From: Aurantiacibacter gangjinensis
GTDB taxonomy: Bacteria > Pseudomonadota > Alphaproteobacteria > Sphingomonadales > Sphingomonadaceae
Length of the DNA: 64,000 bases
Assembly (NCBI RefSeq): GCF_001886695.1
Contig: NZ_CP018097.1
Location: 2,251,001-2,315,000 of the forward strand
Direction: 5' to 3'
Positions 1 through 3,817 of this stretch are shown here, in pieces. Below the pieces are notes generated by a model. It saw only the letters and a list, made by a program, of their open reading frames with translations. It had not been told where the DNA came from and did no database searches. The first letter of the stretch is position 1; every line of letters begins with the position of its first letter. Position numbers and translations under genes: made by a program.

Positions 1-59
1 TGGCCGAAATGTGCGCCGGCCTCGATCAATTGCTGCATCGTGACGGTAGGAGCCGCCAT
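1..59 (-). CDS. rpsB: 30S ribosomal protein S2, N-terminal fragment
   Basis: Only the first 19 codons lie in the window; the gene runs off the left edge. The reverse strand from 59 reads MAAPTVTMQQLIEAGAHFGH (the last residue from an incomplete codon), the typical start of bacterial S2, including the AGAHFGH segment. S2 is a small-subunit ribosomal protein, usually followed by tsf, which would lie outside the window. An AAAGGAA-type ribosome site precedes the ATG. Identification rests on this short but highly conserved N-terminus. Confidence 0.9.
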   Translation of the reverse strand, partial: MAAPTVTMQQLIEAGAHFG

Positions 60-320: not shown

Positions 321-335
321 GAACAGACGTGGAAC
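321..335 (+). promoter_or_regulatory. LexA (SOS) box 1
   Basis: The sequence is GAAC-agacgtg-GAAC, a perfect match to the alphaproteobacterial LexA site GAAC-N7-GAAC (equal to GTTC-N7-GTTC on the other strand). It lies 34 bp upstream of a second box with the same flanks (TGGAACA repeated). The motif match is seen directly. Binding by LexA is inferred from what is known of the alphaproteobacterial consensus. Confidence 0.7.
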
Positions 336-354
336 AAAATTGCTTGACCAGCTG

Positions 355-369
355 GAACATAGGTGGAAC
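355..369 (+). promoter_or_regulatory. LexA (SOS) box 2
   Basis: The sequence is GAAC-ataggtg-GAAC, a second perfect GAAC-N7-GAAC site. It starts just after a possible -35 element (TTGACC, 344-349), a position where bound LexA would block RNA polymerase. With box 1 it forms a tandem repeat in which TGGAACA occurs four times between 319 and 370. Confidence 0.72.
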
Positions 370-456
370 AAAGGGTGCATGAACGGGGCGCAGCGGAACC
401 GCGAAGTCACCCCGCAGGTTAATGCAGCGACCTCCGGGTCACGGAAAGGACATATA

Positions 457-657
457 ATGGCTCTGGCATTTGCGATCTCGGTGTTCGTCGGCTTCGTGGC
501 CGCGCTCGCCCTTGCTGTTTGCGCCGCGTCGCTGCGCTTCGCCCTTGCGCGTGGCCGTGAAGCTTATGCCGAATTGCAGGCGATCAATCGCGCTTCTTCG
601 CCAAAGCCTGTTCGACTTCGTCGACCGCAAGAGGCTTTTGCGATGGCGGCGGTGTAG
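457..657 (+). CDS. Small single-pass membrane protein, candidate SOS-induced gene
   Basis: This 66-residue protein has one hydrophobic segment (about residues 3-27, rich in Ala, Val and Phe) followed by a basic tail containing several Arg residues. The ATG at 457 has a good ribosome site (GGAAAGGA). Two perfect LexA boxes lie about 90-135 bp upstream with no other gene between. I do not recognise a family. The architecture recalls the small LexA-controlled membrane inhibitors of division such as SidA of Caulobacter, but no sequence similarity is claimed. Its last 74 bases overlap the 3' end of the convergent pssA gene. Confidence 0.6.
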   Translation: MALAFAISVFVGFVAALALAVCAASLRFALARGREAYAELQAINRASSPKPVRLRRPQEAFAMAAV

Positions 658-1543
658 CGCTCCCGTCGGCAGCAGCAGCCCGCGCGTTAGCCCGCCTTAT
701 GCGGCCATAACCGATCGCCGCCCACGCAATCAGCGCCATATAGACGACTCCGATCAGGATCAGCGTCCACCACGTCTCCAACAACAGGCCGCCGACCATC
801 AGGCCAGCCAAGGCAATCAGAGCCAGCTTCGCATCGCCCTTGGGCCGCAGCGATTTCCAACTTGGTGTGGCAATGCTCGATACCATCAGCAAGGCAATGA
901 AGATGACCCAGGGCCCCACCAGCAATGGATCACGGAAAATATCTTGGCCGGTCGCCAGCCAGAGATACATGGGCATGAAAGCAAAACCCGCTCCCATCGG
1001 TGCAGGCACTCCGGTGAGATATCCGGCTTTCTTGCGCGGCCCGTCGTCAGCATCGATCTGCGCGTTGAAGCGCGCGAGGCGCAGCGCGCAGCAAATAGCG
1101 TAAGCCAGCGCCGCCAACCAGCCGAAGCGCGGCGCCTCGACCAGCGCCCAGAGATAGAGCACCAGCGCAGGCGCGATGCCGAACCCGGCGGAATCGGCGA
1201 GGCTGTCCAGCTCCGCCCCGAAGCGCGACTGCGCCTTCAGCAGCCGCGCAACACGCCCATCCATCGTGTCGAGAATGCCGGCAATAATCATGGCGAACAC
1301 GGCCTGCGGCCATTGCTCCGCCACGGCAAAAAGGATGCTGGTCAGCCCCGATGCAAGCGCAGCGGTCGTAATGGCATTGGGCAGCACGGCCCGCATCGAA
1401 AGCCCACGACCTCCGCGCGAACGGGTCACAAACTCGCCCTCGCTTGCCCGCGGACCGAGCCATGCAGGCCCCGGCGGTGCTGTGTCGTCCTGGTCGAAAT
1501 CGTCGGAAGGGTCGCCCCGGCCATCGTTTATATCGCCGCTCAT
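584..1543 (-). CDS. pssA: CDP-diacylglycerol-serine O-phosphatidyltransferase
   Basis: This inner-membrane enzyme joins CDP-diacylglycerol and serine to make phosphatidylserine. The CDP-alcohol phosphotransferase signature DGxxAR...G...DxxxD is complete, with D92, D95, D113 and D117 visible. The protein has 319 residues with several hydrophobic segments and an unusually long, acidic N-terminal extension of about 50 residues before the first one. Its ATG overlaps the TGA of the upstream psd gene by four bases, so the two are probably translationally coupled. Confidence 0.95.
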
Positions 1544-2348: not shown

Positions 2349-3749
2349 TTAATTCACTGAGAAATCGAAGGGGACGCCACTCTCGCGGAAGCGGGCGGGC
2401 ACGAGTTCGCGGCCCATGGGTGGGGCCGAACGCGCGATGCAGCGTGGGCGATGGCAAAGCCTGCACGATACACCGATCGGAACAGGCTCCACGTCCGCCA
2501 ACACGTCGCCATAGACCAGTCGGCCAGCATGTAGGGCAGAACAGGCGAGCGCCACCGAACGAAGCACGCGGCGTTCGCCGAAACCGCCGCCGCCCGCGCG
2601 CACGGTGCGGGCGATCGACACGTATCGCTCGCCATCGGGCATCTCGATCATCTGCGCATCGACCTGGAAGGGTTTCGCAAACACCTCATGGATGTTCCAC
2701 AACGGACATGCGCCCCCATGCCGTGCGAGCGGAAATCCCGCCCCGTCCAGCCGCTTGGACACATTACCCGCCCTGTCGACGCGCAGAAAGAAGAACGGCA
2801 CGCCCTCCTCGCCCGGACGCTGCAAAGTGGTGAGCCGGTGCGCGGCCTGCTCGAAGCTGACATCGAAGCGCGCGGCCAGCGCCTCGATATCGTAGCGGAG
2901 TGCCTCGGCGCCTTTCCGGAAGGCGTGGTAGGGCATCAGGAGCGCAGCCGCCCAGTAGGATTGCAAGGCGCGGTGGACGAGCGCGCGCCCGTCTTCACTG
3001 GCGAAGCGCCCTTGCTGGGCGATCGCCGCGATGGCATCGCCCTGCTCCAATATGGCGAGTTGCAACGCGGCCTGGAAACGCCTGCCCGATGCAGGCAGCC
3101 GCTCTGCAACATAGATCCGTCGCCGGTGATAATCGTGCCAGCGCGTGCCGCCGCGCATCAATCCGTCATCGGCGACCTGCACATCCAGCCCATGCGCCTC
3201 GGCGATATGTGCGCGCATCGCCTCGAAACTGTCGAGGCGGCGCGCCTGCTCTGCCGCGCTATCGTCGAGCGAAGGGAAGCAATTGCGGCGCGCCGCTAAG
3301 AAAGCGCGCGCTTCCGCGACCGCGTCCGCCGCGCTTTCTCCGTTGCCAGTACCACTCTGTTCGCGCCGCGCGGCCAGAGCCAGCTGCTCTTCTCCGAAAG
3401 CGGTATGCAATCGGAGGAGCGCCTCGGCCATGCCCGGATAGGATGTGGCGATGTCCTCCACATCGAGTGGCGCAATATCGATGTCGGCAAAAAGAGGGTC
3501 ACGCAGCGCAGATTGCAGGCGGGCCGATGTTTCGTCGGCATTCGCGTCTGCCAAATCGGCCACGTCGATGCGATAGGTCGTAGCGAGCTTCAACAGCATT
3601 TCCGCCGTCACCGGACGCTGGTTGCGCTCCATCAGCGCGATGTAACTGGCAGAGATGTCGAGGTCGCTCGCCATATTAGCTTGCGTAAGCCCCAGATCGC
3701 GTCGCAGCTTTTTCAGTCTCGGGCCAAGATACAGCGTTTTTCCGGCCAT
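2349..3749 (-). CDS. Short-chain fatty acyl transcriptional regulator (ScfR/RamB type)
   Basis: The 466-residue protein starts with an XRE helix-turn-helix (LTQANMASDLDISASYIALMER region, about residues 22-43). It continues through an ImmA/IrrE-like middle and ends in the cysteine-containing ScfR-type domain (GVSCRLCHRPRCIAR, near the C-terminus). Members such as RamB control acetate and glyoxylate-bypass genes in response to short acyl-CoAs. The gene is divergent from aceA with palindromic sites between them. I chose ATG 3749 because GGAG sits just upstream; an earlier in-frame start would run into the palindromic operator region. Confidence 0.88.
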   Translation of the reverse strand: MAGKTLYLGPRLKKLRRDLGLTQANMASDLDISASYIALMERNQRPVTAEMLLKLATTYRIDVADLADANADETSARLQSALRDPLFADIDIAPLDVEDIATSYPGMAEALLRLHTAFGEEQLALAARREQSGTGNGESAADAVAEARAFLAARRNCFPSLDDSAAEQARRLDSFEAMRAHIAEAHGLDVQVADDGLMRGGTRWHDYHRRRIYVAERLPASGRRFQAALQLAILEQGDAIAAIAQQGRFASEDGRALVHRALQSYWAAALLMPYHAFRKGAEALRYDIEALAARFDVSFEQAAHRLTTLQRPGEEGVPFFFLRVDRAGNVSKRLDGAGFPLARHGGACPLWNIHEVFAKPFQVDAQMIEMPDGERYVSIARTVRAGGGGFGERRVLRSVALACSALHAGRLVYGDVLADVEPVPIGVSCRLCHRPRCIARSAPPMGRELVPARFRESGVPFDFSVN

Positions 3750-3771
3750 TGGGCGGTTCTCCGTGTGACGC

Positions 3772-3817
3772 ACTTTACAGCTGTACACACAAATCTTGTA
3801 AAGTTCGACAACTTTAC
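3772..3817. promoter_or_regulatory. Palindromic operator region between scfR-type gene and aceA
   Basis: A perfect inverted repeat, GTAAAGTT-cgac-AACTTTAC, spans 3798-3817. A further half-site ACTTTAC lies at 3772-3778, inverted relative to GTAAAGT at 3798. The three half-sites sit between the divergent starts at 3749 and 3893. Regulators of the RamB/ScfR class usually bind near their own and the target promoter, so this is the likely binding site. The repeat is seen; the assignment is inferred. Confidence 0.65.

Follow-up and report, generated by a model that had tools for sequence, protein, structure and literature searches.

A LexA-boxed gene for a small membrane protein, antisense to the end of pssA, in Aurantiacibacter gangjinensis and its family: a candidate SOS-induced division inhibitor

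Locus

A small gene in a 64-kb stretch of the Aurantiacibacter gangjinensis genome (64,000 nt; the window) lies between rpsB, which diverges from it, and pssA, which converges on it and overlaps its 3' end. The features of the locus are as follows (window coordinates).

1 to 59, minus strand: 5' end of rpsB (ribosomal protein S2), start at 59; divergent neighbor, identified with the Ribosomal_S2 profile
321 to 335, plus strand: LexA box 1 (upstream box), GAACAGACGTGGAAC; exact GAAC-N7-GAAC match
344 to 349, plus strand: -35-like hexamer TTGACC, 11 nt ahead of box 2; read from the sequence
355 to 369, plus strand: LexA box 2, GAACATAGGTGGAAC; exact GAAC-N7-GAAC match
457 to 657, plus strand: gene for a small membrane protein of 66 amino acids (aa); ATG start, ends in -MAAV
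584 to 657: antisense overlap of 74 nt between the 3' ends of the small gene and pssA; from the coordinates of both open reading frames (ORFs)
584 to 1543, minus strand: pssA (CDP-diacylglycerol-serine O-phosphatidyltransferase), convergent neighbor; CDP-OH_P_transf, E = 9.4e-23

A preliminary description of this DNA had claimed two perfect LexA boxes, a possible promoter near the second, and a 66-residue ORF with one membrane helix and a basic tail. Both boxes are exact, are the sole two GAAC-N7-GAAC sites in the 64 kb, and start 34 bp apart; TTGACC stands near the second box, and in 39 of 79 relatives TTGA[C/A] lies 11 nt ahead of the first; and the ORF is as described, with its helix at the N-terminus. 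The 74-nt overlap with pssA and the divergent rpsB across from the boxes had been missed. Box 2 is presumed to cover the spacer and the -10 region, and, as read from the sequence, AAAGGA (445 to 450) lies ahead of the ATG of the small gene. The Ribosomal_S2 match for rpsB (G000:C1:2250385-2251029) had an E value of 8.3e-92, and the RpsB N-terminus was also read; PssA scored 103.1 bits against TIGR00473 (E = 1.5e-29), slightly below the 107-bit cut-off.

The LexA operator in this genome

Dinucleotide shuffles of the 64-kb window held a mean of 1.29 boxes, with at least two in 34 of 100 shuffles, and the genome as a whole contains 51 GAAC-N7-GAAC sites, against 51 for a backwards control pattern. 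Such counts, for window and genome alike, are no better than chance; the motif has to be assessed on where it stands and on whether it is conserved. All 51 genome sites (49 elsewhere plus the two in the window) were inspected. Many, within long reading frames, are probably chance matches; others lie shortly upstream of lexA, recA, uvrA, radA, an mmcB-like gene, and two radical-SAM genes. LexA was identified with TIGR00498 (174.2 bits; cut-off, 110.95) and the MmcB-like protein with PF06319 (E = 1.3e-37), while UvrA, RadA, and the PA0069-like protein were read in part and score below their whole-protein cut-offs. Judged by this context, GAAC-N7-GAAC is the LexA operator of A. gangjinensis. A passage of PMC4211646 gives the Caulobacter LexA site as GTTC-N7-GTTC, which is the same motif on the opposite strand.

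The inspection turned up further boxed genes. The two radical-SAM genes (L171, 807 to 1601; L175, 870 to 1700) encode one protein matched by TIGR03916 ("putative DNA modification/repair") and one that is PA0069-like, and their boxes suggest that both belong to the SOS regulon. A 176-codon ORF (L179:825-1352) stands directly behind a GAAC-N7-GAAC box, an inner ATG giving a shorter protein; at the thresholds applied, neither NCBIfam nor Pfam assigned it to a family, and it is a possible further SOS gene. A second gene for an S24 peptidase (LexA-like fold) is found at L138:1259, with a GAAC-N7-GAAC box ~550 bp off.

Conservation of boxes and gene

A total of 149 genomes of the window's family (Sphingomonadaceae-like) were searched by tblastn, and rpsB was located in all 149; relatives of the small gene were found by tblastn beside rpsB, with boxes, in L012, L013, L014, and L016. 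The stretches upstream of rpsB from 98 genomes (two more, taken from the window's own genome, are not among these) were combined with five earlier loci, so that 103 genomes from about 93 genera were compared. In 80 of them the rpsB gap is bounded directly by pssA in antisense orientation, and 76 of these 80 gaps contain a perfect box. Over the same gaps, other half-site spacings gave 1 to 8 matches, the backwards pattern gave 3, and 20 dinucleotide shuffles gave 0 to 3; an equal stretch of the pssA body contained no perfect box. The other four gaps (L041, L060, L106, and L134) each have a 7-of-8 box behind TTGAC. Among the window's closer relatives, multiple boxes are present, the first two mostly 33 to 34 bp apart (L012 and L141 to L145), with a distance of 21 bp in the congener L014. 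In a named collection, whose loci were found via a PssA search, box and gene were present in 9 of 9 loci; carriers include Aurantiacibacter rhizosphaerae, Altererythrobacter xiamenensis, and Sphingobium wenxiniae.

In the remaining 23 genomes, rpsB and pssA are separated. Of these, 22 were profile searched and the loci fetched from them were read; the gene was recovered in 11 of the 23. Box and gene stand beside pssA alone, away from any rpsB-pssA gap, in L198, L199, L200, L211, and L224, and in a locus where neither pssA nor rpsB was found in L205 and L218, whose copies adjoin what we take to be lon plus hupB and adk plus secY, respectively. The gene is still on the rpsB side in L046, L061, L104, and L114; in the first three, the roughly 1.7 kb next to rpsB contained no recognized pssA, and the boxed gene copy is kept there. 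Joint retention of boxes and gene in relatives had been set beforehand as a test of the preliminary description, and the prediction held both in the 80 gaps (76 with a perfect box and 4 with a 7-of-8 box) and for moved copies. We considered that the boxes might serve rpsB and rejected this, because among the 23 rpsB loci without an adjacent pssA a box occurs within 600 nt only in L046 and L061, both of which keep the small ORF, and because boxes accompany relocated gene copies.

Altogether, the small gene with a perfect or near-perfect operator is present in 91 of the 103 genomes (about 93 genera), usually at a fixed place. No copy was found in 12 of the 103 with an insensitive profile, which in an order-wide search matched 7 of 14 family genomes. 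That search (60 genomes of the order; E ≤ 0.01) also gave matches in 4 of the 46 other genomes; since the profile missed family members that carry the gene, its silence in other families is weak evidence. The four outside matches (E of about 0.001 to 0.01) were not accepted: L193 to L195 have no box, and G160 gave no locus. Among the order's other families, the corresponding position had a box in 0 of 20 rpsB loci examined (42 genomes matched rpsB) and 0 of 16 pssA loci examined (45 genomes matched); inside the family, 12 of 14 pssA loci have one. Because no boxes stand at the outside-family loci examined, the rpsB-gene-pssA arrangement is placed as confined to the family, on a comparison made at rpsB and pssA only.

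One genome (G068; L104 and L220) has two small one-helix ORFs ending in -EAA in tandem upstream of rpsB. The farther ORF has a box; before the ORF nearer rpsB there is none, not even a 7-of-8 match. The nearer ORF is similar to the copy that has moved in L205, a locus of the same genus, and the pair is a possible duplication.

The protein

An ORF picker gave a result for 79 of the 80 gaps and for four further loci (83 ORFs). The ORF of L126 was missed by the picker and is present in its locus listing; that of L091 is a poor 52-aa pick, which was kept in the counts of ORF ends and dropped from the topology set (82 ORFs). Apart from L091, ORF lengths among the relatives are 66 to 111 aa. Over the first 42 codons, which lie outside the window's pssA overlap, dN/dS is 0.08 to 0.53 in 15 of 15 pairs of six close relatives, with synonymous sites near saturation for some pairs. 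Purifying selection on N-terminal codons outside the overlap indicates that the protein itself matters, and the coding status of the small ORF is well supported by these comparisons.

The hydrophobic segment begins near residue 4, the preceding residues have a charge of 0 or -1 in 82 of 82 ORFs, and no second transmembrane-like segment is present in any of the 82. The tail as a whole is positive in 80 of 82 (median net charge, +7), and in its first 15 residues the net charge is above zero in 55, zero in 20, and below zero in 7; since the helix is not always followed at once by positive charge, the topology stands as a prediction only. It is that of a single-pass inner-membrane protein with its N-terminus outside (positive-inside rule) and an Arg/Pro-rich cytoplasmic tail. 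The window protein has a long hydrophobic helix and a basic tail (45 residues). AlphaFold2, run on this protein with nine relatives, gave one helix (residues 2 to 47), a tail of low confidence, and a short helix at 57 to 64 (mean pLDDT, 82.5; pTM, 0.43).

Mean column identity in alignment A1 is 27%, a variability so high that no specific partner is obvious. As the preliminary description had foreseen, family searches would miss the gene: Pfam and NCBIfam scans of the window protein and 38 relatives gave no consistent family, with single weak matches in one member each. The same proteins had no Pfam match to a LysM domain, and the SulA profile (PF03846) matched neither the protein nor anything in the whole genome. 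Among the matches listed in the open-licence literature (e.g., the best 15 of 303), none reported the small gene. We regard it as a new family, so far unannotated, whose functional kind is known and whose overlapping C-terminal signal is unusual.

The 3' end

The pssA stop was located in 80 cases; in 79 of these the stop of the small gene lies at least 17 nt inside pssA, and in 78 the overlap is in the same relative frame. The ORFs end in AA in 75 of 83 cases and in AAA in 52 of 83, and the codons of these ends often face PssA arginines on the opposite strand. CGG and AGG make up 67% of 193 arginine codons in the PssA overlap region versus 36% of 1,343 upstream. Synonymous resampling of PssA codons gave an expectation of 26.4 AA ends and 15.5 AAA ends in the 77 overlapping cases, against 71 and 51 observed; with codon usage pooled across genomes that are themselves related, these expectations do not amount to a strict probability. 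Copies with no pssA found opposite (L046, L061, L104, L205, and L218) end in AA in 4 of 5 cases, as do 9 of 9 in the named collection, which includes close relatives of the window. Given the AA excess over the PssA resampling and the AA ends of these two groups, the C-terminal Ala-Ala seems to be selected for the small protein. The alternative that -AAA is a mere by-product of PssA arginines was rejected as sufficient on the resampling and on the 4 of 5 copies without pssA opposite.

A passage of PMC7652416 names Ala-Ala-COO- as the key ClpXP recognition element, and, according to an excerpt of PMC11034885, changing the two C-terminal alanines of Caulobacter CdnL to aspartates stops its clearance. 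The Ala-Ala tail of the relatives is probably an SsrA-type ClpXP degron. The window's copy ends in -AAV, and those of the congeners L012 and L014 end in -LTA and AAA; the first two of these endings indicate that the degron is not strict in this genus.

A 5' untranslated region (UTR) element in relatives

In 35 of 79 relatives (e.g., L013, L052, L054, L085, and L101), the stretch from box to start codon contains the motif T[TA]TCCACA, which we take to be close to the DnaA-box consensus. As controls, single-base shuffles averaged 0.14, the rpsB side had the motif in 2 of 79, and the reverse orientation was present in 3 of 79; the motif is absent from the window's own 5' UTR. In some relatives it stands inside a possible hairpin, CCACAGCC-TGTCAACA-GGGCTGTGG. 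An alignment of 16 rows, chosen for having the motif, has 77.3% of cells paired versus 72.7% in shuffles; its covariation score was reached by 0 of 500 shuffles and its count of both-side pair changes by 241 of 500. We regard the putative hairpin, with modest covariation in a subset of relatives, as a lead. The T[TA]TCCACA sites may be DnaA boxes or one arm of that hairpin. In Escherichia coli, uvrB is under both LexA and DnaA in the account given in part of PMC6015884, which makes joint control of the small gene conceivable.

Comparison with known systems and proposed function

Passages of PMC4211646 describe two proteins of Caulobacter crescentus: SidA, an SOS-induced small inner-membrane protein of 29 aa, and DidA, a damage-induced division inhibitor of 71 aa with one membrane helix, which is DriD-controlled and SOS-independent and whose ORF likewise runs into the end of a second annotated one. 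The present protein is like SidA in being, by prediction, an alphaproteobacterial, LexA-controlled, small single-pass inner-membrane protein, and like DidA in being small with one helix. Compared by description only, it differs from SidA in length (66 to 111 aa with a tail versus 29 aa) and from DidA in its conserved LexA boxes versus SOS-independent control by DriD. Parts of PMC13396833 state that FtsW is bound by YneA, which membrane proteases rapidly degrade, and that ChiZ and SosA are modelled on FtsW TM7; SosA is a damage-induced single-pass membrane division inhibitor in an excerpt of PMC6851548. The likeness to YneA, ChiZ, and SosA, all damage-induced single-pass membrane division inhibitors, extends to an induction and function that we infer for the present protein. 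YneA and ChiZ have a LysM domain outside the membrane, whereas here the tail is predicted to be cytoplasmic and no domain was detected. With SidA at 29 aa, DidA SOS-independent, and YneA and ChiZ carrying LysM, none of these can be claimed as the gene's family.

That the gene encodes an SOS-regulated membrane protein is, on its operators and predicted topology, close to certain. Division inhibition is proposed because of the analogy with SidA, DidA, YneA, SosA, and ChiZ and the lack of a SulA match, and we favor it by a small degree. LexA would occupy the boxes over the promoter, as their conservation suggests, and repress the small gene. DNA damage would activate RecA, LexA would cleave itself, and the promoter would be derepressed, whereupon a short single-pass inner-membrane protein with a predicted cytoplasmic tail would accumulate and would hold the divisome, probably via helix contacts with FtsW/FtsI/FtsN as SidA does. 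After repair, LexA would return; given the Ala-Ala tail in most relatives, which appears to be selected, ClpXP should then clear the protein. Taken as a whole, the reading of a LexA-repressed, damage-induced, quickly degraded inner-membrane protein, most likely a SidA-like division inhibitor, has in our judgment slightly better than an even chance. For the wider claim, of a family-wide sphingomonad SOS checkpoint protein with a fast ClpXP tag (-Arg-Ala-Ala-Ala) written antisense across the PssA C-terminal arginine cluster, we consider the chances evenly balanced.

If true, a single stretch of DNA would encode, on its two strands, a portion of a membrane enzyme and the off-switch of a division checkpoint. 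The locus also offers a quantified case of two overlapping antisense frames with a short degradation-type signal apparently selected on one strand. SulA-less division arrest after DNA damage is known in few species, its inhibitors being too variable for family searches. The candidate is present, usually at a fixed place, in most genomes examined of the family, so the question is testable in any tractable sphingomonad.

The alternative that survives best, although we think it unlikely, is a TisB-like SOS membrane toxin, which would depolarize the membrane or slow growth at high damage and aid persistence, acting elsewhere than on the divisome. TisB itself is a 29-aa amphipathic protein with the antisense RNA IstR-1, and tisB translation is controlled by 5'-UTR structure, a feature that the hairpin-like 5'-UTR element in a subset of relatives brings to mind. 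The present protein, however, is longer, with a long hydrophobic helix and a basic tail in place of a short amphipathic peptide, and a degradation-tag C-terminus suits a regulator that needs clearance. What the two share is the logic of LexA control over a very small membrane protein, the SOS role of TisB being stated in a passage of PMC9040746.

A role in phospholipid regulation, in which an SOS transcript antisense into pssA, or binding of the protein to PssA, would lower phosphatidylserine synthesis during damage, is less probable again. The fixed-frame convergent overlap and the relocated genes that stay with pssA (L198, L199, L200, L211, and L224) would fit it, but a boxed copy is kept where no pssA was found (L205, L218, L046, L061, and L104), and purifying selection acts on N-terminal codons outside the window's overlap. 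Another damage role, as a basic-tailed membrane protein that anchors nucleoid DNA or RNA at the membrane or as an envelope-repair regulator, is about as improbable, if anything a shade more so: the median tail charge of +7 and the low-confidence, largely non-helical modelled tail agree with it, but the argument is compositional only, no DNA-binding or other domain being consistently matched. Chance boxes or a non-coding ORF have a negligible probability, since the box counts that would allow them (at least two in 34 of 100 shuffles of the 64 kb, and a genome count equal to the backwards control) are contradicted by family-wide conservation at exact spacing, purifying selection, and a selected C-terminus.

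Other features of the window

Beyond pssA, the minus strand of the window encodes at 2349 to 3788 a regulator with HTH, IrrE-like M78, and ScfR C-terminal regions (PF09856; E = 3.2e-56). It resembles the RamB acetate regulators, yet scores below the cut-off of the RamB model.
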